Part shown: piece by piece, positions 131 through 59,573 of the stretch
Layout: each line of letters opens with the position of its first letter
Numbering within the stretch: position 1 is the first letter of the stretch
NCBI RefSeq assembly: GCF_013248995.1
Contig: NZ_JABRPK010000001.1
Location: forward strand, 124,001 to 188,000
Length of the DNA stretch: 64,000 bases
From: Frigoribacterium sp. VKM Ac-2836
Lineage (GTDB): Bacteria; Actinomycetota; Actinomycetes; Actinomycetales; Microbacteriaceae
Direction of reading: 5' to 3'
Translations under genes and position numbers: made by a program
Notes under the pieces: model-generated
Told to the model about the DNA's origin: nothing
The model's input: only the letters and a program-made list of their open reading frames with translations
Database searches by the model: none

Positions 131-963
131 CCGTCGTCGTCGTGACCCTCGCGTCCGCCGTCCGCATGAAGCACGTCGCGAACCAGCTGCGATTCGTCCG
201 GCAGGTCGCACCCGACGCCGGGCACGTGGTCGTCTGGCTCGACGAGACGCCGGCTCCCGACGTGCCCGCCCTGGCCGGTGTGACGACCCTGCACGTGCCG
301 CCCGGGCCCGACGGTCTGCGCCTCGCCGCCGGACGTAACCGCGGAGCCGACGCGGCCCTCGGCCACGGTGCCACGCTGCTCGTGTTCCTCGACGCGGACT
401 GCGTCCCGGGCACCGACCTGTTCCGGTTCTACGAGCAGGCGGCCCTCGAGCACCCGGGAGCCCTGCTGGGCGGGCCCGTCACCTACCTGCCCGAGGGGTT
501 CGTCCTCGGCACGGGCGAGGGCCTCGACGACGCGACCGCCCCGCACGCGGCGCGACCCGCGCCTCCTGCGGGGTCGACGGTCGTGGCCGGCGCCGAGGAC
601 TACCCGCTGTTCTGGTCGCTCTCGTTCGCCGTGACGCCCGCGACCTGGGCCCGGCTCGGCGGTTTCGACGAACGGTTCGAGGGCTACGGCGGCGAGGACA
701 CCGACTTCGCCTTCACCGCCCGCTCGCTCGACGTGCCGCTGGTCTGGGTCGGCGGAGCCCACGCGTACCACCAGTACCACGCCACCTCGGCGCCCCCGTG
801 GCGGCACCTGGGCGACGTCGTCCGCAACGGCGGGTTGTTCGCCGAGCGGTGGGGCGAGTGGCCGATGGGTGGTTGGCTCGACGCCTTCGAGCGGGCGGGC
901 GCGGTGCGGCGCACCGCCGGCGGCGGCTGGGCGCTCGTCGAGGGCGCGGCCGTCCCGAGCTGA
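127..963 (+). CDS. Family 2 glycosyltransferase
   Basis: A 278-residue GT-A fold glycosyltransferase, expected to move a sugar from a nucleotide donor onto a cell-surface or secondary acceptor in the cytoplasm. Seen: a beta-alpha N-terminus, the metal/nucleotide DxD motif as D89-A-D91 in LVFLDADC, and a galactosyltransferase-like C-terminal segment with GGFDERF and GYGGEDTDF near residues 178-194, where the acidic residues normally bind the acceptor. The N-terminal part is shorter than in typical GT2 enzymes. The GTG start overlaps the stop of the preceding frame by GTGA. Donor and acceptor cannot be told from the sequence. Confidence 0.85.
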   Translation: MTVVVVTLASAVRMKHVANQLRFVRQVAPDAGHVVVWLDETPAPDVPALAGVTTLHVPPGPDGLRLAAGRNRGADAALGHGATLLVFLDADCVPGTDLFRFYEQAALEHPGALLGGPVTYLPEGFVLGTGEGLDDATAPHAARPAPPAGSTVVAGAEDYPLFWSLSFAVTPATWARLGGFDERFEGYGGEDTDFAFTARSLDVPLVWVGGAHAYHQYHATSAPPWRHLGDVVRNGGLFAERWGEWPMGGWLDAFERAGAVRRTAGGGWALVEGAAVPS

Positions 964-986
964 CCTGCTCGCGTCGACGAGCCGTA

Positions 987-1058
987 ATCGCACCGCCGAC
1001 TGAGGGTCGAACCGTCGATGTGGGCGGTGCGATGTTCAGTCGGTGGTGCGACACCGAC
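987..1058. terminator. Two tandem hairpins between convergent genes
   Basis: ATCGCACCGCC at 987-997 pairs perfectly with 1023-1033, and its loop holds a second TCGA..TCGA pairing. GTCGGTG at 1039-1045 pairs with 1052-1058 across a 6-nt loop. The hairpins lie between the glycosyltransferase end (963) and the opposed gene end (1085), so they can serve both. There is no U-tract, as is common for actinobacterial terminators. Confidence 0.6.
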
Positions 1059-1084
1059 CCGAGGAAGCGGTCGGAGCCGACGGC

Positions 1085-1369
1085 TCAGTCGAGCGTGCCC
1101 TGGTCAGACGACTTCTTGTGGGCGATGGCGTCGCGTTCGGCGGCGAGCGACGCGACGGTGGCCGGGTCGAGGGCGTCGTAGTCGACGAACGGGTCGGGCT
1201 GGCCGGTCTTGCCGGCCACGACCGCCGAGTACGCCGAGACGGCGAGCCGCAGCTTGGCGGTGGCCCGCCCGGCGCGCTTGCTCGACAGCGGTTTCTCTTG
1301 CATGACCTTGCTGTGGTGGTCGAGCGCCTCGACGAGGTCGCGGTGGGCCGTCTTGAGCTTTTTCGCCAT
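1085..1369 (-). CDS. Small conserved-looking hypothetical protein
   Basis: A 94-residue soluble protein, MAKKLKTAHRDL..., with two predicted amphipathic helices, charged ends and a balanced Lys/Glu/Ala composition unlike the Arg/Pro-rich shadow frames around it, which is why it is called real. No known domain is recognised. Upstream on its strand the sequence CATGAT sits 6 nt before the ATG, resembling the leaderless -10 spacing seen elsewhere in the window; no Shine-Dalgarno is visible. It converges with the glycosyltransferase across the hairpins at 987-1058. Confidence 0.6.
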   Translation of the reverse strand: MAKKLKTAHRDLVEALDHHSKVMQEKPLSSKRAGRATAKLRLAVSAYSAVVAGKTGQPDPFVDYDALDPATVASLAAERDAIAHKKSSDQGTLD

Positions 1370-1853: not shown

Positions 1854-1964
1854 GCCGGGCGACCGGGGTCGCGGGCGACGCGACCACCGGGGTTTCCCGG
1901 CCCGCGCCTCCTATGCTTCCCCTCGACAGGGGCCGCCCGAGCCCCGCTCGCCGAGGGGGCGCTC

Positions 1965-3356
1965 ATGACCGACGACGGACGCGCGGAGCGAGCACCCGAC
2001 GGCCCGGACGGCCCGGACGGCACGCCGGGACGAGGAGGCGCGGTGCGCGAGGGCGGGATCGCCCGCCACGGCCGCCTCCGCCGGGGGCACCCCGTGGCGT
2101 TCGCCGCGAAGGTGACGGCGGCCGCGCTGGCCGTCCTGCTCGTCAGCACGACGTCGGTCGCGGCGATCGCCACCTGGCAGGTGCTGCAGGGCGCCGCGCC
2201 CACCGTCACGCTCTCGGGCCCGGGGGGATCGTCGGCGTCACCTGTGCCGCAGCTGACGGCGCAGGGCGGTGAGGTGAACCTGCTGTTGATCGGCACGGAC
2301 ACGCGCGAGGGGTTGGGGGCCGGGTACGACGACGTGGCCAACCAGCAGGCCAGCTCGGGGGCGGGCAAGAACGACTCGACCGTTCTCGTGCACATCTCCG
2401 AGGACCACACGAACATGGCGGTCGTCAGCTTCCCGCGCGACCTGATCGTGCCCATGCCCGCCTGCCCGAACGACGACGGGACGACGAGCCCGGCGACCTC
2501 GGGCGCGATGTTGAACACCGCGCTGGCTCGTGGCGGGCCTCAGAACGGGTTGTCGTGCGTGGCGCAGACCATCGGGCAGCTGACCGGGCTGCAGATCGAC
2601 TACGCCGGGTCGATCACCTTCGAGGGGGTCGTGTCGATGGCCGACGCGATCGGCGGTGTCGAGGTGTGCCTGGCGACGCCGATCCGCGACACCGAGGTGC
2701 AGCCCGCTCTCGACCTGCCCGCCGGCACCCGGACGTTGTCGGGGGCCGAGGCCGGGGCGTTCCTCCGGTCGCGCTACGGGGTGGGCGACTCGAGCGACCT
2801 CGGTCGCATCAGCAACCAGCAGACGTTCCTCTCGGCGCTCGCCCGGCAGACGGTGTCGGCGGGCACGCTGACCGACCCGACCAAGGTGCTCGCGATCGCG
2901 CGGGTGGCCTTCGCGAACATGACCCTGAGCGAGAGCCTCGCCGACGCGTCGACTCTCGCGAAGCTCGGCCTGGCCGTGAACACCGTCGGACTGTCGAACA
3001 TGGTGTTCGTGCAGTACCCGGCGGTGGACGATCCGGCCGATCGCAACCGGGTGCTGGTCGACGAGTCGTCGGCGGCGGTGCTGAACGACGCCTTGCAACG
3101 CAACGTGCCGCTGACCCTCTCGGCGGACAGCCTCGGGCGGTCGGCCGTGCTCGACCCGGACGCCTCGGCGGCTGCACCCACCGGGTCGGCGGCTCCGCCG
3201 GCCGAGGGGGGCGGCGACGCGACCGGCGGGCCCGGCGACGTGGCCCCGAGTGACCCAACGGCCGGCGTGCCGAGGCCCGCGCCCACCGCGGCCGCCCTTC
3301 CCGACGGCGTCTCGGGCCAGTCCGCCGATCAGGTCACCTGCGCCAAGCGCGACTGA
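1965..3356 (+). CDS. LytR-CpsA-Psr (LCP) family cell-wall ligase
   Basis: 463 residues. LCP enzymes transfer undecaprenyl-linked glycopolymers (teichoic acid, arabinogalactan or capsule) onto peptidoglycan outside the membrane. Seen: a charged cytoplasmic N-terminus, one membrane anchor near residues 46-68 (VTAAALAVLLVSTTSVAAIA), then LCP signatures LLLIGTDTRE, VVSFPRDLIV with the conserved Arg-Asp pair, and the GDSSDLGRISNQQ block near residues 271-286. The C-terminus is a low-complexity Ala/Pro/Gly tail. A TATGCT -10-like box lies at 1911-1916. The N-terminal stretch contains a copy of the dispersed 10-mer (2033-2042). Family assignment is firm; the polymer is unknown. Confidence 0.9.
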   Translation: MTDDGRAERAPDGPDGPDGTPGRGGAVREGGIARHGRLRRGHPVAFAAKVTAAALAVLLVSTTSVAAIATWQVLQGAAPTVTLSGPGGSSASPVPQLTAQGGEVNLLLIGTDTREGLGAGYDDVANQQASSGAGKNDSTVLVHISEDHTNMAVVSFPRDLIVPMPACPNDDGTTSPATSGAMLNTALARGGPQNGLSCVAQTIGQLTGLQIDYAGSITFEGVVSMADAIGGVEVCLATPIRDTEVQPALDLPAGTRTLSGAEAGAFLRSRYGVGDSSDLGRISNQQTFLSALARQTVSAGTLTDPTKVLAIARVAFANMTLSESLADASTLAKLGLAVNTVGLSNMVFVQYPAVDDPADRNRVLVDESSAAVLNDALQRNVPLTLSADSLGRSAVLDPDASAAAPTGSAAPPAEGGGDATGGPGDVAPSDPTAGVPRPAPTAAALPDGVSGQSADQVTCAKRD

Positions 3357-3432: not shown

Positions 3433-4665
3433 ATGCTGTCGTTGACCCGCGTGCGGGAGTCGTTCTGGTTCCTGCCCGCCGTCTTCGGGCTCGCCGCGCT
3501 CGTGGTCGCCGAGGTGCTCGTGACGATCGACCGGGCACTGCCGACGACGGTGACCGAGGGGCTGCCCCTGCTGGGTGCCCTCAGCGCCTCCGGGGGGCGG
3601 TCGCTGCTGTCGGGCATCGGGACGTCCATGCTCACGGTGGCCGGGACGTCGTTCTCGATCACGATCTCGGTTCTCGCCACGACGTCGTCGACTTACGGCC
3701 CGCGTCTCGTGCGCAACTTCATGGCCGACCGAGCCAACCAGTTCGTGCTGGCGACCTTCACCTCGACGTTCCTGTACTGCATCGTCGTGATGCGCACCGT
3801 CCACACCGAGGTCGACGACACCAGCGCGTTCGTCCCGGTGATCGCGGTGCACGTGGCGGTCCTGCTGAGCGTGTTCGACGTGGGGGTGCTGGTCTTCTTC
3901 ATCCACCACATCGCCGGTTCGGTGCAGATCACCTCGTTGCAGGCGAGGGTGCTCGACGACCTGCGGGCCGCGACCGACGACGTCTACCCGACGAGTCCGG
4001 CCGACGACGTCAGCCAGGAGGCGCGGGTGCGGTCGTCGACGGACGGCCGCCTTCCGACGGAGGCGGCCGTCGTCCGCGCCGACGCCGACGGTTACGTGCA
4101 GACCATCGCCTGGGAGGGGCTGCGTCGCGTCGCGGTGCACGAGGGCCTCGTGGTGGAGGTCGTCGCGATGCCGGGCCGGTACGTGATCGTGGGGGACCCG
4201 CTCGTCGTGACCAGTGCCTCCCCGGGGTCCGACACGGCTCGGGCGCTCCGCCGGACGGTCACCCTCGGGCCCGCCCGGACCCCCCATCAGGACGTCGGGT
4301 TCGCCTTGCAGCAGCTCGTCGAGATCGCCGTGCGCGGTCTGGCCTCGGGAAGCAACGACCCCTACACCGCGGTGAGCGCCCTCGACATGTCGGCCGGGGT
4401 GCTCGTCCCGCTCTGGCGACGGGGTGAGCGCGTCACGGCTCTGCTGGACGACCGGGGTGCCGAGGTCGTCCTCGTCTCGTGGCCGACCGTGGACGAGCTC
4501 GTCGACTCGCTCTTCGACACGGTCCGCACCTACGCCCAGGACCATCCGGCCGTGCTGGCGGCGGCCCTGCGCCTCGTCGCGCGGCTCGACGAGGTGGCGT
4601 CGCCGGCGCGGGTCGGCCGACTGGTCGACCACGAGACCGCCGTCCGAGGCGCCCTCGGCGGCTGA
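3433..4665 (+). CDS. DUF2254 family integral membrane protein
   Basis: 410 residues from the ATG at 3433. Four hydrophobic spans are visible in the first half (FWFLPAVFGLAALVVAEVLV; LTVAGTSFSITISVLATTSS; a span around FTSTFLYCIVVM; VIAVHVAVLLSVFDVGVLVF), followed by a soluble C-terminal half. The segment TLGPARTPHQDVGFALQQLV followed by RGLASGSNDPYTAVSALD is characteristic of DUF2254. The molecular function of this family is not established; channel-like or stress roles have been suggested only loosely. The reading frame extends 61 codons upstream, but that part overlaps the LCP gene and looks non-coding. The gene is followed by a long non-coding gap. Confidence 0.85.
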   Translation: MLSLTRVRESFWFLPAVFGLAALVVAEVLVTIDRALPTTVTEGLPLLGALSASGGRSLLSGIGTSMLTVAGTSFSITISVLATTSSTYGPRLVRNFMADRANQFVLATFTSTFLYCIVVMRTVHTEVDDTSAFVPVIAVHVAVLLSVFDVGVLVFFIHHIAGSVQITSLQARVLDDLRAATDDVYPTSPADDVSQEARVRSSTDGRLPTEAAVVRADADGYVQTIAWEGLRRVAVHEGLVVEVVAMPGRYVIVGDPLVVTSASPGSDTARALRRTVTLGPARTPHQDVGFALQQLVEIAVRGLASGSNDPYTAVSALDMSAGVLVPLWRRGERVTALLDDRGAEVVLVSWPTVDELVDSLFDTVRTYAQDHPAVLAAALRLVARLDEVASPARVGRLVDHETAVRGALGG

Positions 4666-5479: not shown

Positions 5480-5563
5480 ATGAGAGACCACCGACAGCCG
5501 TCCGCGCGGACCGGCGCGCGCCTCCTCGGCGACCCCCGGGCCGGGCGCGAGGGCGCACGGTGA
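5480..5563 (+). CDS. Possible 27-aa leader ORF coupled to umuD
   Basis: ATG at 5480 follows GGGAGG at 5470-5475 with 4-nt spacing, the best ribosome binding site in this stretch. The frame encodes 27 mostly Arg/Ala/Gly residues (begins MRDHRQPSARTGARLL) and stops at 5561-5563, overlapping the GTG of umuD by GTGA. The peptide resembles no known family. It could be a translated leader that feeds ribosomes to umuD, which itself lacks a clear Shine-Dalgarno, or simply an upstream extension artefact. The coupling is seen; the function is inferred. Confidence 0.4.
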   Translation: MRDHRQPSARTGARLLGDPRAGREGAR

Positions 5564-7931: not shown

Positions 7932-9224
7932 CTAGAACGCCCGCCGCGCCTCCTCGGTGGTCAACCCGCGGACGCCCCGCGTCGACACGGCCGCGAGCGT
8001 CGCCACGACGATGATCGCGGCGCAGGCGAGCAGCGTGGGTCGCGTGCCGAACTGCTGGGCCGCCGGGCCCGCGAAGATCTCGCCGAGAGGTACGGCGACG
8101 AACGAGCCGACCATGTCGTACGAGTAGACGCGAGCCAAGGAGGCGCGGGGCACGTTGCCCTGCAGCGACTGGTCCCACGAGATGGCGAAGATCTCGAGGG
8201 CGACGCCGCCCAGCAGGAACGCCACCACGAGGGCGGGCACAGCGGGTGCCAGTCCGAGCGTCGCCACCGGCACCGCCGTCACGGCCATCAGCCCCACGCC
8301 CACGGCGAGACCGTGTCGGGGGCGCCACCGCATCGCGACCACCGCGCCGAGGCCGAGGCCCACGGTCTGGGCCGCGACGACCAGCCCCCAGGCCGCCCGA
8401 CCGAACGTGTCGTCGGCCACGACGGGGCCCAGCACCGTGGTCGCCCCCACGAAGGCGGCGTTCAGCACGGCGAACTGGGCGACGACGATCCACACCCACG
8501 AGCGTCGGGTGAACTCGCTCCACCCCTCGCGCAGGTCGGCGATCACGGACGAGCCGGAACCGACGCCCGCGACGCCAGCCGAGGCCTCGGCATCCTGCCG
8601 AGCCGGCAGCCGTAGTCGCGAGTACAGGACGCCCGCCAGCGCGAATCCGGCCGCGTCGACGGCGAGGCCCCATCCCGGCCCGACCACGGCCACGATCGCC
8701 GCCCCGGCGGACGCCCCGACGACGCTGCCCCCGTTCAGGCCCAGGCGCAGCAGGGCGTTCGCCGGTCGCAGCAGAGCGGCCGGGACCGTCTCGGGCACGA
8801 GGGCCGCCGCGGTCGGCAGGCTCACCGCGGCCACGGCGCCGTTCAGCACGCTCAGGACGACCAGCAGCGGGATCGTCGCCGACCCCGTGATCACGAGCGC
8901 GGCGACCACGCCCTGCGTCCCGGCCGCGGCGAGCGACGTCCCCACCAGCACGACGTCCCGTCTCAGTCGGTCGGCGATCACACCCCCGGCGAGCAGCACC
9001 GCCACGTTGGCGATCGACCGGGCCGCGACGACCAGGCCGAGGTCCGCCGCCGACCCGGTCAGGTCGAGCACGGCGAACGCGAGCGCGATCGGTGCGACGG
9101 CGTTGCCGAGGACGCCCGTCGTCCGAGCCGCGAGCAGCCAGCGGAACGTGGCGTGGCCGAGGGGGCCGCGGCGGTCGTCCGTCTCGTCGGGAACCGAGGA
9201 GGCGCCTCCCTGGCCCTCGGTCAC
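7932..9224 (-). CDS. MFS transporter, probable drug or metabolite exporter
   Basis: 430 residues with about 12 hydrophobic spans. The N-terminal domain begins HATFRWLLAARTTGVLGNAV and contains the loop 2-3 motif GGVIADRLRRD; the second half opens with WVWIVVAQFAVLNAAFVGA. This layout matches the MFS_3/enterobactin-exporter-like group. It is translated with the upstream regulator (ATGA overlap at 9221-9224), which suggests that the regulator controls its own exporter. The gene carries two copies of the dispersed 10-mer (7945-7954 and 8138-8147). Substrate unknown. Confidence 0.88.
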   Translation of the reverse strand: MTEGQGGASSVPDETDDRRGPLGHATFRWLLAARTTGVLGNAVAPIALAFAVLDLTGSAADLGLVVAARSIANVAVLLAGGVIADRLRRDVVLVGTSLAAAGTQGVVAALVITGSATIPLLVVLSVLNGAVAAVSLPTAAALVPETVPAALLRPANALLRLGLNGGSVVGASAGAAIVAVVGPGWGLAVDAAGFALAGVLYSRLRLPARQDAEASAGVAGVGSGSSVIADLREGWSEFTRRSWVWIVVAQFAVLNAAFVGATTVLGPVVADDTFGRAAWGLVVAAQTVGLGLGAVVAMRWRPRHGLAVGVGLMAVTAVPVATLGLAPAVPALVVAFLLGGVALEIFAISWDQSLQGNVPRASLARVYSYDMVGSFVAVPLGEIFAGPAAQQFGTRPTLLACAAIIVVATLAAVSTRGVRGLTTEEARRAF

Positions 9225-9885: not shown

Positions 9886-11202
9886 ATGACACGAATCGCG
9901 TTCATGGGTGCCGGCAGCGTCGTCTTCACCCGCCAGCTGATCGCCGACCTGCTCGGCTTCGACGACCTCGGCCCGATCGAGGTGGCCCTGCACGACATCG
10001 ACCGTCAGCGCCTCGACGTGGCGGAGGGCACGGCGCACCAGCTCGCCGAGCGCTTCGGGCGACCGGTCACGGTGTCGGCCCACCTCGAGCGCCGCGAGGC
10101 CCTGGCCGGGGCGGACTTCGTCATCGACATGGTGCAGATCGGCGGGGTCGAGGCGACGCGTCGCGATCTCGAGATCCCGGCCCGGCACGGCCTGCTGCAG
10201 ACCATCGGCGACACCACGGGCGTGGGCGGGGTGTTCCGCGCGCTGCGCACGTTCCCGTTCCTCTCGGCCCTCACGGCCGACATGCGCGAGCTCTGCCCCG
10301 ACGCCGTCCTGCTGAACTACACGAACCCGATGGCCATGAACATCTGGTGGGCCTCCGTCGTCGCTCCCGACATCACCGCCCTCGGCCTGTGCCACAGCGT
10401 CTACTGGACGGCTCACGACCTCGCCGAGCTGGTCGGCGTCCCGGTCGAGCAGACCGTCCACCGCGCCGCCGGCGTCAACCACCAGAGCTGGTTGCTCGAA
10501 TGGACCCACGAAGGGCGCGATCTCTACCCCCTGCTCGAGCAGAAGATCGCCGCCGACCCCGAGCTGCGGCGCCGCGTGCGCGTCGAGATGTTCCGTCGCG
10601 TCGGCTTCTACCCGACCGAGACCAGCGAGCACTCCTCCGAGTACCTCTCGTGGTTCCTCCGGTCGCCCGAGCAGGTCGAGCGGTTCCGCCTGCAGCCGCT
10701 CGAGTACCTCGGCATCAGCGACGACAACGTCTCCGAGTACCACCGCGCCCAGGAGGCGTTGCGCACCGGCAGCCCCTTGCCGCTCGAGGAGGGCGCCACC
10801 GAGTACGCCCCGCAGGTGATCCACTCGCTCGTGACGGGCACGCCGCGCGAGATCCATGCGAACGTCCCGAACCTCGGCCTGATCGACAACCTGCCGCAGG
10901 GCGCCGTGGTCGAGGTGCCGACGCTGGTGGGCGGGCACGGCATCCGGCCGGTGGCGATGGGTGCGCTGCCGGTCGCGTGCGCCGCGGTGAACCGTCCTTA
11001 CGTGTCGGTGGCCGAGTTGACCGTCGAGGCGATGCGCACGGGTGACCCGCGCCTCCTGCGCCAGGCGGTGCTGGTCGATCCGAACGCCGGCTCGACCCTG
11101 ACCCCCGAGCAGATCTGGCGACTCTGCGACGAGCTCGTCGAGGCGCACGGCGACCTGCTGCCCGAACCCTTGCGCGAACTCCTGCCCGCGAGCGCGCTGT
11201 GA
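9886..11202 (+). CDS. GH4 family NAD-dependent alpha-galactosidase-type glycosidase
   Basis: 438 residues. GH4 enzymes hydrolyse glycosides by a redox mechanism using NAD+ and Mn2+. Seen: N-terminal Rossmann motif FMGAGSVVFT, the substrate-binding NYTNPMA near residues 145-151, metal ligands Cys169 in GLCHS and His199 in GVNHQ. MelA-like features and the galactose-type neighbours favour an alpha-galactosidase or alpha-N-acetylgalactosaminidase over a 6-phospho-glucosidase; there is no PTS gene nearby. ATG 9886 is chosen because it starts the Rossmann strand; upstream in-frame codons fall inside the promoter. First gene of an operon running to 19762; overlaps the aldolase by GTGA. Confidence 0.85.
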   Translation: MTRIAFMGAGSVVFTRQLIADLLGFDDLGPIEVALHDIDRQRLDVAEGTAHQLAERFGRPVTVSAHLERREALAGADFVIDMVQIGGVEATRRDLEIPARHGLLQTIGDTTGVGGVFRALRTFPFLSALTADMRELCPDAVLLNYTNPMAMNIWWASVVAPDITALGLCHSVYWTAHDLAELVGVPVEQTVHRAAGVNHQSWLLEWTHEGRDLYPLLEQKIAADPELRRRVRVEMFRRVGFYPTETSEHSSEYLSWFLRSPEQVERFRLQPLEYLGISDDNVSEYHRAQEALRTGSPLPLEEGATEYAPQVIHSLVTGTPREIHANVPNLGLIDNLPQGAVVEVPTLVGGHGIRPVAMGALPVACAAVNRPYVSVAELTVEAMRTGDPRLLRQAVLVDPNAGSTLTPEQIWRLCDELVEAHGDLLPEPLRELLPASAL

Positions 11203-17272: not shown

Positions 17273-18198
17273 TCGTCGTGGCCGCCTTCAGCCCCTCGCT
17301 CGACACCGCCTACGTCGTCGACGATCTCGTGCTCGGACACCCGCACCGACCGTCGTTCGTGCGCCGCGTCGCGGGCGGCAAGGCGCTCAACATGGCCCGG
17401 GCCGCGTCCGCCCTGGGGGCGGAGGTCACGGCCGTGCCCGTACTCGGCGGACACATCGGCGAGCTGGTGGCCGAACTGCTCCGGGCCGACGGCGTCGCCG
17501 CCGTCCCGGTGCCCGACGACGTGACGACCCGTGTCTGCGTGTCGATCGGCTCGGACGCCACCGGCGACCTGACCGAGGTCTACGAACACGCGGTCCCGGT
17601 CTCGGTCGTCGTCGTCGACGCCGTCCTCGCCGCCCTCCGGGCCGCGCTCGTGCCCGGTGCCTGGCTCTCCGTGTCGGGCAGCATGCCGCCCGGCGTGGGC
17701 GACGACCTCGTGCCCCGCCTCGCCGAGCTGGCCCGCGCCTCCTCGTCGCGATTCGCGCTCGACACGCACGGCGAACCGCTCCGACGCCTGCTCGCGGCGG
17801 GCACCGCCGTCGACCTGCTCAAGATCAACCGCGAGGAGGCGCGGGCCGCCCTCGGCGCACCGGCCGACGCCGCGCTCGGGTCGCTGGTCGACGGGCTGAG
17901 GGTGCGGACGCGCGGTGCCGTCGTGGTCACCGACGGAGCCGCGGGCTCGCTCGCCGCCGACGACACGGGCCGGTGGAGCGTCGCCCTGCCGACCACCGCG
18001 GGCGACCACCCCGTGGGCAGCGGCGACTCGTTCCTCGGGGCGCTCGTCGCGGGACTCGACGCCGGCCGACCGCTCGCTCAGGCGCTCGCCGCGGCCACGG
18101 GAGCGGGGGCCGCGAACGCCGAGGTGCCGGGGGCGGCCGTCTTCGACGCCGACCGGGCCCGCGAGATCGCCGACCTCGTGCGGGTCGAACCCGCCTGA
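17269..18198 (+). CDS. 1-phosphofructokinase/tagatose-6-phosphate kinase-type PfkB kinase
   Basis: 309 residues. Closer to FruK/LacC than the preceding gene: it begins VVAAFSPSLDTAYVVDDL, the FruK/LacC-type opening, continues VAGGKALNMARAASALGAEV, and ends with VGSGDSFLGALVAGL, the catalytic GxGD motif with Asp250-like position. In the proposed pathway it would make tagatose-1,6-bisphosphate for the aldolase at 11199. Two copies of the dispersed 10-mer (17734-17743 reverse and 17834-17843) fall in its middle, 100 bp apart. The choice between fructose-1-phosphate and tagatose-6-phosphate cannot be made from sequence. Confidence 0.83.
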   Translation: MIVVAAFSPSLDTAYVVDDLVLGHPHRPSFVRRVAGGKALNMARAASALGAEVTAVPVLGGHIGELVAELLRADGVAAVPVPDDVTTRVCVSIGSDATGDLTEVYEHAVPVSVVVVDAVLAALRAALVPGAWLSVSGSMPPGVGDDLVPRLAELARASSSRFALDTHGEPLRRLLAAGTAVDLLKINREEARAALGAPADAALGSLVDGLRVRTRGAVVVTDGAAGSLAADDTGRWSVALPTTAGDHPVGSGDSFLGALVAGLDAGRPLAQALAAATGAGAANAEVPGAAVFDADRAREIADLVRVEPA

Positions 18199-19793: not shown

Positions 19794-20966
19794 TCAGAGC
19801 CAGCGCCCGTCCCGCAGGACCCGGTCGACCCTGTCGTGCTCGTCGAGCACGACGAGGTCGGCCCGGTCGCCGGGGTCGAGCCCCGCGCCGGTCAGCCCCA
19901 GGGCGGTCGCGGCGGTGGTGGAGGAGGCCCGCACCGCCTCGGGCAGGGCGACGCCGTGCTCGCGCACGAGCCGCGAGACGCCTTCTCCGACGGTGCCCGT
20001 GCTGCCGGCCAGCGAGGAGCCGTCCGCGAGCATCGCCACGCCGTGCTCGACGACGACCTCCGAGCCCGCGATCGTGTACCGGCCGTCCGACCAGCCGGTC
20101 GCGGCCATGGCGTCCGAGACGAGGACGAGACGACCCGAGGAGGCGCGGCGCGCGATCTCCACGGCGTCCCGCGAGACGTGCCGACCGTCCAGGATGAGCT
20201 CCACGGCGAGGCGGTCGTCGGTCAGCGCGGCGCCGGCCAGCCCCGGTTCTCGGTGGTGCAGCGGTCTCATGCCGTTGTAGACGTGGGTGACCACGGTCGC
20301 CCCGGCGTCGGCGGCCGCGTGGGCCTCGGCCGCCGTGCAGTCCGAGTGCCCGAGCGCGACCACCACGCCGCGGTCGACCAGCAGGCGGATCGCGTCGACC
20401 GCACCGGGCAGCTCGGGGGCGATGGTCACCAGGCGGACGGTGCCCCGGGCGGCGTCGAGCAGGGCCTCGACCTCGGCGGGCTCGGGCGATCGCAGCAGAG
20501 CGGGGTCGTGGGCACCCCGTCGTGTCGACGAGAGCCAGGGCCCCTCGAGGTGGACGCCGTCGAGCACCCCCTCGTCGACGAGCGGAGCGAGGACGCCGAG
20601 GGCTCGGAGGGTCGCCTGCGACGAGGCCGTGGCGACGGAGGCCACGAGTCGCGTCGAGCCCGCCCGGTGGTGGTGGGCCGCGGCACGGCGGGCCCCGGCT
20701 TCGTCGGCACCGCCGAAGTCGACGCCCAGCGCGCCGTGCACGTGCTGATCGACGAATCCGGGCACGACGACTCCCCGGAGCCGTTCGAGAGGCAGGTGCA
20801 TCAGGTCGCCGGTCGGTGTCGGCCCGTCGCCGGCGTCGATCACGCGGCCCCCGCCCAGGGCGATCCAGCCGGGGCCGTCGGCACCCGTCGCCGTCACGAT
20901 CCGATCGGCGACGACGACTCGGTCGGCCGTACCGTGTCGGTCGGTCGCGGCACCTCGACGACTCAC
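19794..20966 (-). CDS. nagA: N-acetylhexosamine-6-phosphate deacetylase (NagA/AgaA)
   Basis: 390 residues from a GTG at 20966. Removes acetate from GlcNAc-6-P or GalNAc-6-P using divalent metal. Seen: amidohydrolase motif FVDQHVHGALG with the HxH pair, metal ligand Glu in VHLEGPWLS, the histidines of VVALGHSDCTAAEAH and THVYNGMRPLHHREPG, and catalytic Asp in LVSDAMAATG. The GTG overlaps the ROK kinase stop, so kinase and deacetylase are translated together. With AgaS, tagatose kinase and aldolase on the opposite strand it completes a GalNAc route. GlcNAc specificity is equally compatible with the motifs. Confidence 0.88.
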   Translation of the reverse strand: MSRRGAATDRHGTADRVVVADRIVTATGADGPGWIALGGGRVIDAGDGPTPTGDLMHLPLERLRGVVVPGFVDQHVHGALGVDFGGADEAGARRAAAHHHRAGSTRLVASVATASSQATLRALGVLAPLVDEGVLDGVHLEGPWLSSTRRGAHDPALLRSPEPAEVEALLDAARGTVRLVTIAPELPGAVDAIRLLVDRGVVVALGHSDCTAAEAHAAADAGATVVTHVYNGMRPLHHREPGLAGAALTDDRLAVELILDGRHVSRDAVEIARRASSGRLVLVSDAMAATGWSDGRYTIAGSEVVVEHGVAMLADGSSLAGSTGTVGEGVSRLVREHGVALPEAVRASSTTAATALGLTGAGLDPGDRADLVVLDEHDRVDRVLRDGRWL

Positions 20967-28784: not shown

Positions 28785-28865
28785 GCCGCACCGCGCCTCC
28801 TGCTTGCCGTGCTCGGGTGGGTCGTTCGGGTCGCGGCGCCCCGCACGACGGTCCGCCGACACCCC

Positions 28866-31136: not shown

Positions 31137-31366
31137 TGCCCGGCCCCGGCTCCGCCCCCCGTGTGCACATCGCGACACCCGAGCGCGCAGGCCCACCGAT
31201 CCGAGGAGGCGAGCGGCGTGTCGCGCGCGTTCTGTCGGGTTCGGTACGCCGGCAGCGGTCTGGAAGGTCGGGTTCGGCCCGCCGACCCGGGCTCGGCAGG
31301 TCGAGCCCGACGCGCGGCCGGGCTGGGGTGCCCCGGCGTGGGGGAGGTGAGCCGAGGAGGCGCGGG

Positions 31367-34918: not shown

Positions 34919-34966
34919 GAGGACGCAGGAGGCGCGGGTCACCCGACCCGCGCCTCCTGCGTCCTC
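34919..34966. terminator. Perfect 22-bp hairpin between osmC and corA
   Basis: Positions 34919-34940 pair without mismatch to 34945-34966 over an ACCC loop. Each arm contains a full copy of the dispersed 10-mer (34927-34936 forward, 34949-34958 reverse). It lies between two convergent genes and should terminate both. No U-tract follows. Confidence 0.85.
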
Positions 34967-36053: not shown

Positions 36054-36600
36054 GGTCTGCGCTCCTGTCGTTCGTGGTGCGACGGCCGTCCGTCGAAGGA
36101 CGGTGTCGTGGCGGTGGTGGTCACGACAGCCGTGCGGGCGACGGGTGCGCGGTGGGGGCCGGGGGCGACGCACACGGGCGACGACACGACACCGGGGGTG
36201 CTGAGTCGTCGACGACGCGCGTCGACGGGAGACGTCGGTGCCCGTGGGCATCGCTCGTGGTCGGTCGGGGACGCCGCTCAGACGAGCGATGTGGACGGCG
36301 CGACCACGGAGGGATGCCGCGGGGCGCCAGTACTGTCACCAGCCATCGCCGCTCACCTGCCTTCCGTCGTGCTGCCGCCGGGCCCGGACGGGCCGTGGGC
36401 CCTCGTGGGCCGTGGGACAGCGTACCCCCGTGGGCAGCGGTGGTCGACCGGGTGGGCGAGACCTCGGGGAAGGAGGCGCGTGTCGCCGTTGACCCGTGCC
36501 TCCCCGTGTCCACGATCGGGTTTCGCGACCGGCAGACGGCGCCACTCTGCCACCGGGGAGGGCAAGACACGAGCCTGAGTCGTGTTCGTGACCGGATCGA
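36054..36600. other. Gap upstream of corA without a gene
   Basis: About 550 bp between the divergent corA and the dehydrogenase gene. I see no gene, no tRNA and no M-box-like leader. It contains one copy of the dispersed 10-mer (36471-36480) and several short GC inverted repeats. All frames are Arg/Pro-rich. Confidence 0.5.
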
Positions 36601-39311: not shown

Positions 39312-39361
39312 CCCCGCCGCCGTGCAACACGGCGTCACCGCCCGGGTGACGAGGAGGCGCG

Positions 39362-40798: not shown

Positions 40799-40853
40799 GC
40801 CCAGGAGGCGCGGCGCGGCCGGGCTCTCGGCTCCCGTCGAGCCGCGGGGCGTC

Positions 40854-42972: not shown

Positions 42973-44020
42973 GCCCACCCCCGTCGCGTCGGTGCCGACG
43001 CCCGGCAGCACGCCCCCCGTCGTTACGCCCGCACCGGGCGCGCCGCCGACCGTCCGGCTCGTGACCTCGCCGCTGCCCGTGTCGGGTGCGCAGGTCGTGC
43101 TCGAGCGGGGCGGCTACCGCGCCGAGATCGCCGGTGTGGGTGCCACGCTGCGCACACTCACCTTCGAGGGCCGCGACCTGGTCGTGCCGTTCGCCGCCGA
43201 TGAGGTGCGCCCCGGCTTCCGTGGTGCCCTGCTCGCCCCGTGGCCCAACCGCGTGACCGACGGGCGCTACGAGCGCGACGGCGCCGAGCACCAGTTGCCG
43301 CTTAACGAGGTCGAACGCGGCCACGCCCTGCACGGACTGGCGCACTGGGCCGACTGGACGATCGATCAGGCCCAGGCCGCACGGGCCTCGGCCTCGTTCG
43401 TGCTCGCGCCGAGCGACGGCTACCCGTGGCGGCTGGCGCTGTCGGTGGTCTACGAGCTGACCGACGACGGGCTCACCACGACCGTCACGGCCTGCAACGC
43501 CGGGACGGGCATCGCCCCCTACGGCACCGCTCCGCACCCGTACCTCGTCGCGGGCGAGGGCCGGGTCGACGACTGGACGTTCAGGCTGCCGGCCGCGCGC
43601 TACCTCGAGGTGACCGACGACCGGCTGGTGCCCGTGGGCACCCGGCCGGTCGGCGACCGCGACGGCTTCGACTTCCGTGAGGGGCACGCCATCGGCGACC
43701 TCTTCGTCGACCATGCCTTCACCGAGCTCGCGTTCGCCGAGGTCGACGGCGCCTTTGCCTCGCACGACCCCGATCAGGAGGCGCGGGTCACCGCCACGGT
43801 CACCGCGCGGGACGGGCACGGTGTCGCGATGTCCTGGGGTGTCGAGCTGCCCTGGGTGCAGGTGCACACCGCCGACCGCCCCGAGCCCCGGAACGACCGC
43901 ATCGGCCTGGCCGTCGAGCCGATGACCTGCCCGCCCGACGCCTTCAACTCGGGCGACGACCTCGTGCTGCTCGAGCCCGGCGAGGCCCACACGGCCAGCT
44001 GGACAATCACCGCCTTCTAG
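42965..44020 (+). CDS. Aldose 1-epimerase (mutarotase) family protein
   Basis: 351 residues. Interconverts alpha and beta anomers of aldoses. Seen: LLAPWPNRVTDGRY, GHALHGLAHWADW, catalytic base histidine in TAPHPYLVAGEG and catalytic Glu in LAVEPMTCPPDAFNSGDD. The first 38 residues are a Pro/Thr/Val-rich linker without homology; a later start would remove them but has no better signal. Co-translated with the oxidase, it may supply the anomer that enzyme or the importer/isomerase needs. One dispersed 10-mer copy at 43776-43785. Confidence 0.88.
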   Translation: MSEPTPVASVPTPGSTPPVVTPAPGAPPTVRLVTSPLPVSGAQVVLERGGYRAEIAGVGATLRTLTFEGRDLVVPFAADEVRPGFRGALLAPWPNRVTDGRYERDGAEHQLPLNEVERGHALHGLAHWADWTIDQAQAARASASFVLAPSDGYPWRLALSVVYELTDDGLTTTVTACNAGTGIAPYGTAPHPYLVAGEGRVDDWTFRLPAARYLEVTDDRLVPVGTRPVGDRDGFDFREGHAIGDLFVDHAFTELAFAEVDGAFASHDPDQEARVTATVTARDGHGVAMSWGVELPWVQVHTADRPEPRNDRIGLAVEPMTCPPDAFNSGDDLVLLEPGEAHTASWTITAF

Positions 44021-44651: not shown

Positions 44652-44741
44652 GTGAACAGCTCCTCCCCCCGCCGCCCGGTCACTCGACCGGTCGTCCGCA
44701 CGTCACCGGCCCCGCGCCTCCTCGCCGCCGCTCCGGCCTGA
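44652..44741 (+). CDS. Possible 29-aa leader ORF in the importer 5' region
   Basis: GTG at 44652 follows AAGAGG with 7-nt spacing. The frame encodes 29 residues rich in Arg, Pro, Ser and Ala (begins VNSSSPRRPVTRPVVRTS) and is followed by a hairpin with CCGACGGG at 44755-44762 and CCCGTCGG at 44776-44783. The leader from promoter to the first gene is about 370 nt long. A leader peptide or attenuator role is only inferred; no regulatory codon run for a specific amino acid stands out beyond proline and arginine. Confidence 0.3.
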   Translation: MNSSSPRRPVTRPVVRTSPAPRLLAAAPA

Positions 44742-46044: not shown

Positions 46045-46091
46045 GAGAACCGAGGAGGCGCCGGTCGCCGACCAGCGCCTCCTCGTTTCTC
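46045..46091 (+). terminator. Hairpin between binding-protein and ATPase genes
   Basis: Stem of about 20 bp in three blocks (46045-46049 with 46087-46091; 46051-46061 with 46075-46085; 46063-46066 with 46070-46073) and a GCC loop, followed by a short T-rich end. A partial terminator or mRNA-stabilising structure here would keep the binding protein in excess of the membrane complex. Confidence 0.65.
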
Positions 46092-48961: not shown

Positions 48962-48995
48962 GAGGCGCGGTTCCCGGTCACGGGAGCCGCGCCTC
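48962..48995. terminator. Hairpin terminator after the importer operon
   Basis: GAGGCGCGG (48962-48970) continues through TTCCCG and pairs with 48981-48995: a continuous 15-bp stem with one G-U and a GTCA loop. The 3' arm contains one copy of the dispersed 10-mer (48988-48997). Confidence 0.8.
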
Positions 48996-49087
48996 CTCGT
49001 CTCCCCGCCCCCGGCGGGCACCGACCAGACCGCAGGAGGCGCGGGCCGGCCGCGCAGGACACCGCCGTCCCGAAAACCGAACCGAAC

Positions 49088-50181: not shown

Positions 50182-51999
50182 ATGGCTGAGACCGCCATCC
50201 CCTCCGACTCGTCGCCCGCGGCCCCCGGCCCCGCCGACCCCTCGGCCGACACGTACGTCGTCGGCGTCGACTACGGCACGCTCAGCGGCCGGGCCGTCGT
50301 CGTCCGCGTGCGCGACGGTGCCGAACTGGCCAGCGCGACGTTCGAGTACCCGCACGCCGTCGTCGACCGCACGCTGCCCGGCACGGGTGAACGCCTGCCC
50401 GCCGACTGGGCGCTGCAGGTGCCGTCCGACTACGTCGACGTGCTGAAGAACGCGGTGCCCGAGGCCTTGCGGGCGTCGGGCGTCGAGGCGTCCGCCGTGA
50501 TCGGCATCGGTACCGACTTCACGGCCTGCACCATGGTGCCCACCACCGCCGACGGCACCCCGCTGAACGAGCTCGACCGCTTCGCCGACCGCCCGCACGC
50601 GTTCGTCAAGCTCTGGCGCCACCACGCCGCGCAGGGCCAGGCCGACCGCATCAACGAGCTGGCCGCCGACCGCGGCGAGAGCTGGTTGCCGCGCTACGGC
50701 GGACTCATCTCGAGCGAGTGGGAGTTCGCCAAGGGCCTCCAGCTGCTCGAGGAGGACCCCGAGGTCTACGCCGCCACCGAGCACTGGGTCGAGGCCGCCG
50801 ACTGGATCGTCTGGCAGCTCAGCGGTCGCTACGTGCGCAACGCCTGCACCGCCGGGTACAAGGGCATCTACCAGGACGGTCAGTACCCCAGCCGTGAGTT
50901 CCTCGCCGCGCTGAACCCCGACTTCGCCGACTTCGCCGAGACCAAGGTCGTCCACGAGATCGGTGCCCTGGGCGATGTCGCGGGCACGCTGACCGCCGAG
51001 GCCGCCGGCTGGACGGGCCTGCCCGAGGGCATCGCCGTGGCCGTCGGCAACGTCGACGCGCACGTGACGGCGCCGGCCGCCAAGGCCACGCAGCCCGGCC
51101 AGATGGTCGCCATCATGGGCACGAGCACCTGCCACGTCATGAACGCCTCCACGCTCGCCGAGGTGCCGGGCATGTGCGGCGTCGTCGACGGCGGCATCGT
51201 CGACGGGCTCTACGGCTACGAGGCCGGCCAGTCCGGCGTCGGCGACATCTTCGCCTGGTACGTGAAGAACCAGGTGCCGCAGTCCTCGGTCGACGCCGCC
51301 GCGGCGGCCGGCAAGAGCGTGCACCAGCACCTCACCGACCTCGCCTACGAGCAGCCCGTCGGGGCCCACGGCCTCGTGGCCCTCGACTGGCACAGCGGCA
51401 ACCGCTCGGTGCTCGTCGACCACGAGCTGAGTGGCGTCATCGTCGGCCAGACGCTCAGCACCACGCCCGAAGAGGGCTACCGTGCCCTGCTCGAGGCCAC
51501 GGCCTTCGGCACCCGTCGCATCGTGCAGGCCTTCGAAGAGTCCGGGGTGCCGGTCACCGAGTTCATCGCCGCCGGCGGTCTGCTCAAGAACGCGCACCTG
51601 ATGCAGACCTACAGCGACGTGCTGCGCCTGCCGATCTCGACCATCACGAGCGAGCAGGGGCCGGCCCTCGGCTCGGCCATCCACGCCGCCGTCGCCGCGG
51701 GGGCCTACCCCGACATCCGGTCGGCGGCCGAGGCCATGGGCAGCGTCGAGCGGGCGACCTACGTGCCCGACGAGGCGAACGCCGACGCCTACGACGCCCT
51801 CTACGCCGAGTACCTCTTGTTGCACGACTGGTTCGGCCGTGGCGGTAACGACGTGATGCACCGCCTGCGCGCGATGCGTCGCGACGCGACCCGCGCCTCC
51901 TCGGGTTCCTCGGCGCCCGCCGAGAGCGCCCGCGGCACGGACGCCGTGGAGCAGGACGCCACCGCCTCCGCCGCGACCGACGCGCAGGTGACCGCATGA
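50182..51999 (+). CDS. araB: L-ribulokinase
   Basis: 605 residues, FGGY kinase fold. Phosphorylates L-ribulose at O5. Seen: N-terminal ATP site [29 protein letters not shown] near residue 110, [10 protein letters not shown], the conserved [23 protein letters not shown] and C-terminal [20 protein letters not shown]. The extra 25-residue Ser/Ala/Pro N-terminus is probably unstructured, and a Thr/Ala/Ser tail of about 35 residues ends the protein, where a dispersed 10-mer (51892-51901) lies. AAGGACG is the ribosome binding site. ATGA overlap with araD. Confidence 0.95.
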
Positions 52000-56955: not shown

Positions 56956-58077
56956 GTGCCCCTTCCGTCCTTCGCCGCCCTCGGGATCGACGACGTGGCG
57001 GTCGCGGTCTACCGTCACGTCGTCGCCGGGGCCGGCGCCGAGGCCGGTGCCGAGGACGGGGGCCGGGCGGCGGCCGGGCCGACCGCGGCGGCCGTGGCCC
57101 GGGCCGTGCACCTCGACGAGGCGACGGCCCTGGCCGCCCTGGAGCGCCTCCGTTCGCTCGGTCTCGTCCAACGGACGGCGGGCGGCGAGGGCTACGGCGC
57201 CGTGGATCCTCGCGTGGCCGTCCCAGCGGTGGTGGCCGCGCGTGCCGACGAGCTCGTCGAGGTGCGGGCGGCCGTGCCCGAGCTGGGCGAGTTGTTCGAC
57301 GAGGGGCGGCGCCCCCACGACGCCGATCAGCTGACCCGGGTCGTCGTCGGCCACGCGGCCGTGGGCGACTGGTACTCCCGGCTCGAGCATCGTGCGACCA
57401 CCGACTTCGTGGCCTTCGACCGCCCGCCCTACGTGGTCGCGTCGAACGAGTCCACCCAGCGGGTCGCCCTCGGGCGCGGGGTGCGCTGGCGGGCCGTCTA
57501 CACGGTCGCGAGCATCTCGGCCGACGGCAGCTGGCAGGGCGTGCACCGCCTCGGAGCCGACGGAGAGGAGGCTCGCATCACGCACGACCTGCCCGTCAAG
57601 TTGGCCGTAGCCGACCGCCGTGTCGCCCTCGTCTCGATCGGCCACGACCCCGAGCGGCCCGAGGCCCTCGTCACCGAGTCCGAACCGCTCGTCGCGGCGC
57701 TCTACGACCTCTTCGAGGCCCGGTGGCGCGGCGCCTCGCCCGTGCCCGGGACGCCCGGTGCAGGCCGCGCCGCGGTGGACTGGGCCTCGGTGGCCGCTCG
57801 GCTGGCGGCCGCGTCGCCGTCCGGCTCGGCACCGGTGCCCGGGGGCGCCGTGCCCTCCCGCGAGCAGGAGGCGCGACTCGCCACGCGCCCTCCCACCCCC
57901 GCCGAACGCGACCTGCTGGCCCTCGTGGCCGCCGGCGCGACCGACGACGTGATCGCGGGTCAACTCGGCATCTCGTCCCGCACCCTCCGGCGACGACTGC
58001 ATGCGCTCTTCGACGAGCTCGGCGCGAGCAACCGCTTCCACGCCGGCGTCGAGGCCGCCCGTCGCGGCTGGGTCTGA
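56956..58077 (+). CDS. TrmB-like/LuxR-type transcriptional regulator
   Basis: 373 residues. N-terminal winged helix of TrmB type (AAVARAVHLDEATALAALERLRSLGLVQR), a middle sensor-like domain (RPPYVVASNEST...), and a C-terminal LuxR helix-turn-helix PPTPAERDLLALVAAGATDDVIAGQLGISS ending RFHAGVEAARRGW, quoted here in two shorter parts as the AERDLLALVAAGATDD block and the IAGQLGISSRTLRRRL recognition helix. GTG start with CAAGAT 6 nt upstream, in leaderless spacing. A dispersed 10-mer copy (57866-57875) lies in the linker before the LuxR domain. Likely controls the following surface/secreted genes; ligand unknown. Confidence 0.82.
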   Translation: MPLPSFAALGIDDVAVAVYRHVVAGAGAEAGAEDGGRAAAGPTAAAVARAVHLDEATALAALERLRSLGLVQRTAGGEGYGAVDPRVAVPAVVAARADELVEVRAAVPELGELFDEGRRPHDADQLTRVVVGHAAVGDWYSRLEHRATTDFVAFDRPPYVVASNESTQRVALGRGVRWRAVYTVASISADGSWQGVHRLGADGEEARITHDLPVKLAVADRRVALVSIGHDPERPEALVTESEPLVAALYDLFEARWRGASPVPGTPGAGRAAVDWASVAARLAAASPSGSAPVPGGAVPSREQEARLATRPPTPAERDLLALVAAGATDDVIAGQLGISSRTLRRRLHALFDELGASNRFHAGVEAARRGWV

Positions 58078-58139
58078 CTCGGTCGACGTCCAGGCGGCTC
58101 ACGGCCCGCCCATCGAGTCACCGCGATAGCGTCCCCGAC

Positions 58140-58175
58140 GTGACCCGCCCGCTCCGTCTCGAGTCGTCGTGCTGA
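58140..58175 (+). CDS. Possible 11-codon leaderless upstream ORF
   Basis: TAGCGT at 58127-58132 is followed by 7 nt and a GTG at 58140; the frame VTRPLRLESSC stops at 58173-58175, four bases past the first base of the esterase GTG at 58169. The layout would hand ribosomes to the esterase gene, which has no Shine-Dalgarno of its own. It may instead show that transcription starts at 58140 and the esterase is read from a short leader. Confidence 0.3.
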   Translation: MTRPLRLESSC

Positions 58176-59485
58176 GGCTCTCCCTGGTGTCCGCCGGCAC
58201 CCTCGCCGCCGTGTACACGGTCGCCGGGGTGCTCGTGGTCCTGATGCTGCGTCGACCGCGTCGTGTTCGGACCTGGTGGCGCCGGGTCGTCGGGGCCGCC
58301 GCCCTGGGCGCCGGACTCGGCGCGCTCGTCACCTGGTGGCTCGGAGACGTCGAGGACGTGCTCGACGTCTCGCCCACCTGGGTCGACCGTCTCTGGGCCG
58401 GCGCTCTGCTCGTCGTCCTCGGTGCGGCCGTGGTCGCGCTGGTCCGCGGAGGCGCCCGACGACGCGTGCTCGCCACCTCGACCGTCGTCGTGATGGTTCT
58501 CGCCACGGGGCTCGCGATCGACCGCGACGGTGGGCTCTTCCCGACCGTGGGCTCGTTGATGGGCATCTCGGACGTCCCGGCGCTCGCCGTGCCGGCCGCA
58601 GAGACGGCCGCCGTCCGGGCCGGACGGACCGCGACCGCCGCCCTGCCCGACCTCGGTCGCACCTGGCGGGCGCCGGCCGCCCTGCCGTCGGCGGGGCGGC
58701 TCGGCAGCGTCGCCATCCCGGGCACGACATCAGGCTTCGACGCGCTGGTCTACCTGCCGCCCGCCGCCCTCGTGGCCGACCCGCCTCCCCTGCCCGTCGA
58801 CATCGTCCTGTCGGGGCAGGGCCCCGGCGCGGCACCCGAGAACCTGGTCGACGCCGGGCGGATGGTCCAGACGCTCGACGCCCTCGCCCGGGCGCACCAC
58901 GGCCTCGCCCCGGTCGTCGTCATGCCGGACCAGCTCGAGCGACCGACGAACAACCCGATGTGCGTCGACGGGCCGCTCGGCCACAGCGCGACCTACCTGA
59001 CGGTCGACGTGCCGCGCTGGATCACGAGCCATCTCTCGGTGCAGGCCCCCGGCCGGGCGTGGGCGATCTCGGGCTTCTCGCAGGGTGGTACCTGCTCCCT
59101 GCAACTGGCGGCGGGCCGTCCCGAGCTCTTCTCCTCGTTCGTCGACGTCTCGGGGCAGGTCGGTCCCCGGCTCGACGGTGGGGCCCGGACGACCGTGGAG
59201 CACGGTTTCGGCGGCGACCGGGCGGCCTACGAGGCCGCCCAGCCGCTCGCCGTGCTGGCCGGTAAGGCGCCCTACGTCGGCAGTGCGGGTTTCTTCGCGG
59301 TCGGCGGGACGGATTCGCGTTACGGGCCCGTGATGCCGATCGTGTCGGCGGCCGCCCGCGCCGCAGGCATGGAGGTGACCCGCGAGGTCGTACCCGGCAG
59401 CGGCCATGACTGGTCGACGGCGTCCCGGGGGCTCGCGGCGGGGACCGACTGGCTCGCGGCGCGACTCGGGCTGACGGGGCCGTAG
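58169..59485 (+). CDS. Membrane-anchored alpha/beta-hydrolase esterase
   Basis: 438 residues. Three to four N-terminal membrane helices (LVSAGTLAAVYTVAGVLVVL; VVGAAALGAGLGALVTWWL; AGALLVVLGAAVVALV; VVVMVLATGLAI) precede an extracellular PF00756-like esterase domain: nucleophile Ser304 in SGFSQGGTC, and His413 in GSGHDWST. This architecture resembles corynebacterial/mycobacterial mycolyltransferase-like and putative esterases of other actinobacteria. GTG start inferred from hydrophobic onset and the overlap with the upstream mini-frame. Substrate likely a cell-envelope ester; not known. Confidence 0.82.
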   Translation: MLRLSLVSAGTLAAVYTVAGVLVVLMLRRPRRVRTWWRRVVGAAALGAGLGALVTWWLGDVEDVLDVSPTWVDRLWAGALLVVLGAAVVALVRGGARRRVLATSTVVVMVLATGLAIDRDGGLFPTVGSLMGISDVPALAVPAAETAAVRAGRTATAALPDLGRTWRAPAALPSAGRLGSVAIPGTTSGFDALVYLPPAALVADPPPLPVDIVLSGQGPGAAPENLVDAGRMVQTLDALARAHHGLAPVVVMPDQLERPTNNPMCVDGPLGHSATYLTVDVPRWITSHLSVQAPGRAWAISGFSQGGTCSLQLAAGRPELFSSFVDVSGQVGPRLDGGARTTVEHGFGGDRAAYEAAQPLAVLAGKAPYVGSAGFFAVGGTDSRYGPVMPIVSAAARAAGMEVTREVVPGSGHDWSTASRGLAAGTDWLAARLGLTGP

Positions 59486-59573
59486 GGAGGCTTCGCGGGG
59501 GACCGTCCGCCGAAGGGGGGACGTCCTCGGTGCCCCACCCGCGCCTCCTCGTGTGAACTCTTTGGCCGATGCC

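Follow-up and report, generated by a model that had tools for sequence, protein, structure and literature searches.

A short dispersed motif of the actinobacterium Frigoribacterium sp. VKM Ac-2836, analysed here from a 64-kb stretch of its genome (the window), probably works like a DNA uptake sequence (DUS). It consists of an 8-mer core, GGAGGCGC, usually contained in the 11-mer AGGAGGCGCGG, and had been flagged as the 10-mer AGGAGGCGCG in a first-pass annotation whose interpretation is partly supported, and which left DNA uptake sequences, the closest analogue, unnamed. We liken the motif to DUS and to the uptake signal sequences (USS) by analogy and do not class it as a member of either, preferential uptake being their defining property. 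The comparison is built on features computed here, namely abundance, a near-perfect core, lineage-specific words, non-polarity, conservation at the DNA level, pairs just after stop codons, and the presence of uptake genes.

Abundance and placement of the motif

All 31 exact copies of AGGAGGCGCG first reported in the window were recovered at the same coordinates (16 on the forward and 15 on the reverse strand), where 100 dinucleotide-preserving shuffles average 0.74 copies and never exceed 4. Across the 3.27-Mb genome AGGAGGCGCGG has 921 copies (458 forward, 463 reverse), against 7 for the reversed word (1 and 6), and in a 425-kb sample comprising the window and further stretches (13% of the genome) an order-4 Markov model expects 1.1 copies of the 11-mer and 39 of the core where 143 and 364 are seen. 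The core is nearly all-or-nothing: each of the 24 variants of the 11-mer with a single mismatch in the eight core positions occurs 0–5 times, against the 143 exact copies. Outside the core, the leading A and the two closing G of the 11-mer are preferred bases and vary more, and a weak base preference extends downstream to about +17, these flank preferences being GC-rich. The extended form [CG]AGGAGGCGCGG proposed earlier holds, with C or G at position -1 in 28 of the 31 window copies, while the proposed continuation GTC/GCC amounts to a weak tendency (G right after the 10-mer in 26 of 31 copies, C at offset 13 in 24 of 31).

Codon usage does not explain these counts, and neither of the two refuting conditions named in the first-pass annotation, a count near the Markov expectation or one reproduced by codon usage, holds. 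Synonymous-codon shuffles (n=100) of 398 predicted coding sequences yield 4.9 copies of the 11-mer (sd 2.2) against 86 observed, 12.4 of the 10-mer against 118, and 78 cores against 243. More broadly, at 72% G+C, where AGGAGG is a plausible word, the motif might be taken for an effect of base composition, of codon usage or of mutational bias; we reject this because both the Markov and the codon-shuffle nulls fail, because GGAGGCGC is near expectation in 80 kb of two genomes of similar G+C (10 vs 13 expected in G031, 21 vs 16 in G148), and because the core is better kept than its flanks (see below), so that it is refuted for practical purposes.

Strand polarity was tested on 26 local blocks of 15–64 kb each, 558 kb in total (17% of the genome); dnaA lies on contig C3, and most blocks come from contig C1. 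The blocks contain 448 cores, or one per 1.2 kb, divided 217:231 between the strands (heterogeneity chi-squared 14.0, 26 df, p 0.97), which confirms the earlier description of a dispersed element without polarity that is neither Chi-like nor KOPS-like. The FtsK-orienting polar sequences (KOPS) are polarised along the replichore, and both identities are rejected for want of such polarity. A recombination signal like Chi, read by a helicase-nuclease and existing in lineage-specific variants, would account for a G-rich octamer that is strongly over-represented, conserved and variable among lineages, yet leading-strand polarity is described as a criterion for calling Chi (PMC8022716), and facing pairs past stop codons would not be expected of Chi; we consider this explanation unlikely.

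Relative to genes, predicted with a simple gene caller of our own (85% of the DNA coding), 304 of the 448 sampled cores lie within genes, and intergenic DNA, 14.5% of the total, holds 33% of the cores and 40% of the 11-mers. Copies of the 10-mer in the window divide into 15 intergenic, nine antisense in genes and seven sense. Among 278 cores in complete coding sequences of at least 450 bp, 77 fall in the two end deciles (20% expected, p 0.002), control words being roughly flat, and 110 are sense and 168 antisense, an orientation that softens the earlier remark that a Shine-Dalgarno sequence inside genes is odd. Spacing is more even than random (coefficient of variation 0.79 vs 0.90, p 0.008), to a degree matched by 2.8% of 212 control words. 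Such somewhat even spacing, together with conservation at the DNA level, might be looked for in a site bound by a protein of lineage-specific specificity that organises the nucleoid or acts in segregation, but about 900–3,000 copies per genome, a change of words and pairs past stop codons would all be unusual for one, and we regard such a site as quite unlikely.

Cores are also arranged with respect to one another and to gene ends. Between divergent genes there is 1.0 core per kb, against 2.4 where neighbouring genes converge or run in the same direction; at gaps of 0–45 there are 21 facing pairs (4.1 expected), 14 back-to-back pairs (4.1 expected) and ten same-direction pairs (8.1 expected). 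Fifteen facing pairs are intergenic, and all save one, at 266 bp, sit 12–52 bp past the nearest stop codon. In the hairpin at 34919..34966 of the window the two cores lie 35 and 37 bp beyond the two stop codons, with a predicted fold of -56.3 kcal/mol (z -10.3). The strong hairpins that such pairs form, and their position just past stop codons, fit the terminator-derived seed suggested in the first-pass annotation, or a repeat of the repetitive extragenic palindromic (REP) type that spreads by insertion; what does not fit is that so many sampled cores lie inside predicted genes. REP elements and miniature inverted-repeat transposable elements (MITEs) have a longer unit, are mostly extragenic and spread by insertion. 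Unlike them, the motif has a conserved unit of only 8–11 bp with weak flanks and is largely genic, and relatives differ in the core at coding site 42164 by substitutions, without an insertion. On these grounds we reject an insertion element, and a terminator seed or REP-type repeat is largely refuted and very improbable.

Conservation and lineage-specific words

The 11-mer is present in all 16 Frigoribacterium genomes searched, in 383–1239 copies. Among 150 genomes of the family Microbacteriaceae, 147 of them from outside the genus, its count outside Frigoribacterium is close to that of the reversed word, G069 showing a slight excess (41/37 vs 11/16 reversed). A scan for facing pairs gave 80 listed loci, at least 62 of them from Frigoribacterium, at least ten from Curtobacterium and at least eight from scattered others; among the matches listed, restriction of AGGAGGCGCGG facing pairs to Microbacteriaceae is supported. 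Among these matches, the Curtobacterium loci where the Frigoribacterium word forms a facing pair are L030, L041, L052, L056, L061, L064, L070, L088, L092 and L104. In some Frigoribacterium species G may also occupy the final core position, as GGAGGCGG occurs 56 times against 13 in 80 kb of G003, G012, G013 and G015, where the stretches are syntenic and the counts non-independent; species with this variant have fewer copies of AGGAGGCGCGG.

Close relatives keep the motif at the level of DNA, including within genes. We aligned stretches from 15 relatives to positions 34–60 kb of the window, which hold 24 cores (183 of the 360 core-genome cells were unaligned). In the six close relatives, core identity is 0.991 between genes, where flanks reach 0.91–0.93 (44 site-genome pairs), and 0.997 in genes, where flanks reach 0.84–0.90 (42 site-genome pairs), differences attained by 0.6% and by none of 500 random samples, respectively. 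In the nine distant relatives the core is likewise better kept than its flanks between genes, with none of 500 samples attaining the difference. Where a genic core is lacking, the cell shows one mismatch in 7% of cases against 29% for control 8-mers, while indels or at least three mismatches are commoner than in controls (indels 11.5% against 2.7%). This pattern of loss in genes resembles the gap-rich pattern described for DUS and read there as spread by recombination (Treangen et al., PMC2397512).

Different dispersed words dominate in different Microbacteriaceae genera, whatever the cause. In 80-kb samples the top 10-mers are AGCGGATGCG in G148 and GGCGGATGCG in G063, with nothing comparable in G069. 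Among the 150 family genomes, GCGGATGCG reaches 1,963 copies in G148 and 1,946 in G086 (189 and 198 reversed) and stands at 127 vs 124 reversed in the window's own genome. The word CGGATGCCG reaches 3,084 in G155, 2,929 in G116 and 2,536 in G077 (controls 162, 109 and 72), stays close to control in Frigoribacterium (174 vs 117, 121 vs 133, 150 vs 121), in g47 (87 vs 62) and in g5 (191 vs 105, 198 vs 147), and is below control in g51 (14 vs 57 in G065, 10 vs 55 in G134). Because the reversed form of CGCAGGATC is itself rare, this word is fairly judged by comparing genomes with one another: there are 1,156 and 467 copies in g5 and 407 in g47, and 5–174 in other genomes. Many genomes of the GGATGC type hold both GGATGC words (for example 1,079 and 803 in G131), so that the words grade into one another and do not divide genus by genus. 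In many family genomes, especially small ones, no counted word is in excess, and several of 18 stretches from other genera showed no clear word, 20 kb being a length that can miss one. In g51 GCGGATCG is mildly enriched in 40 kb each of G065 (13 vs 2.3) and G134 (15 vs 2.4), stretches that are possibly syntenic.

Two candidate dialect words were rejected. The top 10-mer of G031, CGTGGGCGTG, is a local tandem array with 18 of its 19 copies within 140 bases (L181:2969-3104, mostly in 6-base steps), and GGGTTGAGG of G023, dialect-like in 20 kb, has 11 of 12 copies in that one 20-kb stretch (L199), partly as short arrays in 31- and 22-base steps; it is absent from four stretches of the congener G105.

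At the level of the order, GCGGATGCG was counted in 198 genomes, 14 of them Microbacteriaceae. The 13 family genomes in this draw other than the window's show only about 1.7–4 fold, and the ten-fold excess of g72 was not seen outside the family in this count. A moderate excess occurs in three other families of the order, f7 (g91; 320 vs 71 in G328), f4 (g105; 225 vs 53 in G283) and f3 (57 vs 17 in G282).

Replacement of one word by another recalls HIP1 of cyanobacteria, which is described as an 8-bp palindrome linked to orphan methyltransferases, with alternatives in some lineages (PMC4390886). The first-pass annotation proposed a HIP1-like element, and a site that a methyltransferase and biased repair create or maintain would agree with dispersion in and between genes, with the change of words among lineages and with the palindromic outer thirds of CGGATGCCG. 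HIPs are palindromic, however, and GGAGGCGC is not; the likeness to HIP1 extends to the dispersion only, and a HIP1-like site of this kind appears improbable.

Uptake genes and the uptake-sequence proposal

The uptake genes named here are candidates recognised from their sequence. Frigoribacterium carries comEA, encoding SLBB plus HhH domains, and comEC, followed by a holA-like sequence (by eye). A type IV pilus locus lies beside rpoC (L241:7384-19999; G000:C3); Pfam supports its pilB, pilT, pilC, N-methyl pilin, pilD and pilM genes, and its minor-pilin-, pilN- and pilO-like genes were assigned by eye. A Tad-type locus has a CpaF-like ATPase and, by eye, a Flp-like pilin. Another actinobacterium, M. 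luteus, is described as transforming with Tad/Flp pili, ComEA and ComEC (PMC6370729, PMC8467076).

Under the mechanism that we propose, a sequence-specific receptor, carried by the competence pilus or by the ComEA–ComEC machinery, would favour tagged DNA, tagged fragments would be taken up and recombined more often, and recombination with conspecific DNA would spread and keep copies, up to roughly one core per 1.2 kb. The other words of other Microbacteriaceae lineages would favour exchange within each lineage, and facing pairs near stop codons may double as terminator hairpins. Campylobacter, too, is said to choose DNA by a methylated motif. A wider form of the proposal, in which such self-DNA tags form dialects across the Microbacteriaceae, the receptor in at least some members is not part of a type IV pilus (but of a Tad pilus, or ComEA), and the Frigoribacterium word changed from the GGATGC type to GGAGGCGC, seems to us evenly poised between acceptance and doubt.

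Several results weigh against an uptake function. A strong PilB match (E below 1e-100) is found in 79 of the 150 family genomes by hand count, the high-copy G116, G077, G142, G040 and G044 included, and not in the high-copy genomes G155, G120, G086, G148, G071, G139 and G074; as several of the highest-copy genomes are without one, we reject the type IV pilus as general partner of the words. ComEC is found in 148 of the 150, including some with none of the counted words (for example G025, G106, G065 and G134), and because it is near-universal and present in word-less genomes too its presence proves little and is uninformative as a discriminator. ComEA was compared in 21 genomes, its relevant end being found in 17 and not in four: the residue before the first HhH glycine is Gly in Frigoribacterium (3/3) and g5 (1/1) and Arg in ten genomes of the GGATGC type, while of the tag-less genera g51 has Arg and g11 Gly, so that this residue could serve as a lead to the receptor, confined to one clade and with exceptions among tag-less genera. 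Neither the survey of PilB matches nor the ComEA comparison found a motif-specific receptor. Within genes, the advantage of the core over its flanks falls short of significance in the nine distant relatives (9.8% of samples reach the difference), and between genes indels are rarer at core sites than at controls (13.6% vs 25.2%). Apart from G148, the other genera sampled have few facing pairs, and outside the family GCGGATGCG is mostly near control, with some genomes at about 2–4.5 fold. In the open-licence literature, papers on Frigoribacterium with competence are, by title and the start of the abstract, not about transformation, and nothing pairs 'DNA uptake sequence' with Microbacteriaceae; nor did an account of the motif emerge there, the papers containing the letters of the 10-mer being on other subjects by title.

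In G110 (L228, G110:C1:336001-351000, at about 7700), comEC matches that of the congener G029 only from about codon 288 and adjoins a serine-recombinase-like frame (by eye), and an integrative element apparently sits in the gene. Counts of CGGATGCCG are 28 vs 66 reversed in G110 and 175 vs 55 in G029. The link between the disruption and the low count is an apparent one, in a single case where comEA was not found in the stretch and may lie beyond it.

Window coordinates and comparison with known systems

Table 1. Exact copies of the 10-mer and paired arrangements in the window (gene coordinates are those of predicted genes).
Feature	Position	Strand	Context
Motif copy	558..567	-	Antisense in gene 127-963; exact match
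Motif copy	1903..1912	-	Intergenic; exact match
Motif copy	2033..2042	+	Intergenic; exact match
Motif copy	4016..4025	+	Sense in gene 3433-4665
Motif copy	5517..5526	-	Intergenic
Motif copy	7945..7954	-	Sense in gene 7932-9224
Motif copy	8138..8147	+	Antisense in gene 7932-9224
Motif copy	11048..11057	-	Antisense in gene 9904-11202
Motif copy	17734..17743	-	Antisense in gene 17269-18198
Motif copy	17834..17843	+	Sense in gene 17269-18198
Motif copy	20138..20147	+	Antisense in gene 19794-20897
Motif copy	21574..21583	+	Antisense in gene 20963-21868
Motif copy	26742..26751	+	Sense in gene 26639-27631; faces copy at 26792
Motif copy	26792..26801	-	Antisense in gene 26639-27631; faces copy at 26742
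Motif copy	28792..28801	-	Intergenic
Motif copy	28910..28919	+	Intergenic
Motif copy	30031..30040	-	Sense in gene 29616-31124
Motif copy	31355..31364	+	Intergenic
Hairpin, 22-bp stem, two facing copies (34927-34936 +, 34949-34958 -)	34919..34966		Between convergent genes
Motif copy	36471..36480	+	Intergenic
Motif copy	37003..37012	-	Antisense in gene 36613-37587
Motif copy	39352..39361	+	Intergenic; identical core in 6/6 aligning relatives
Motif copy	40803..40812	+	Intergenic; one core substitution in G005, G006; lost in most distant relatives
Motif copy	43776..43785	+	Sense in gene 43061-44020
Motif copy	44713..44722	-	Intergenic; identical core in 6/6 aligning relatives
Facing pair of GGAGGCGC cores	46054..46082		Begins 22 bp past stop codon
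Motif copy	48988..48997	-	Intergenic; core intact in 10/12 aligning genomes, flanks diverge
Motif copy	49034..49043	+	Intergenic
Motif copy	51892..51901	-	Antisense in gene 50182-51999
Motif copy	57866..57875	+	Sense in gene 56956-58077
Motif copy	59540..59549	-	Intergenic

The window also contains a palindrome, GTGAGCGCTCAC, at positions 41647, 44545 and 50145, which by eye resembles a regulator operator; TGAGCGCTCA is also among the top words in the syntenic stretches of relatives.

Strong uptake sequence preference is attributed to two named families, Pasteurellaceae and Neisseriaceae (PMC7811141), and the Microbacteriaceae, if the wider form of the proposal is true, would join them as a third family of bacteria with uptake sequences, and as the first that is Gram-positive. 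Through such an independent Gram-positive case, with words specific to genera, the evolution of tags and receptors could be tested, and it would be explained how exchange is confined to genera among common bacteria associated with plants. The case might also provide a practical tool, in that these bacteria might become transformable by DNA to which the tag is added. A dialect-forming word constrained at the DNA level calls for explanation even if its cause is not uptake.

The DUS of Neisseriaceae are described as thousands of short tags, genic and intergenic, with facing pairs at terminators and lineage dialects that share a common inner core (PMC3630211). The motif is like them in its high copy number, its occurrence in and between genes, its facing pairs after stop codons and its dialects, and unlike them in its Gram-positive actinobacterial hosts and unrelated words. 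The USS of Haemophilus influenzae lie about 1 kb apart, with uptake requiring a perfect inner core (PMC7811141), and a bias to gene ends and a favoured orientation in genes are reported for uptake sequences (PMC2346458). With the USS of Pasteurellaceae the motif shares a density of about one per kb, a perfect inner core with weaker flanks, and the gene-end bias; USS flanks are AT-rich (PMC7811141), whereas those of GGAGGCGC show weak GC-rich preferences. HIP1 is likewise a dispersed high-copy word replaced by others in related lineages, but GGAGGCGC is not its own reverse complement, and with Chi the motif has in common the over-represented G-rich octamer and not the strand polarity.

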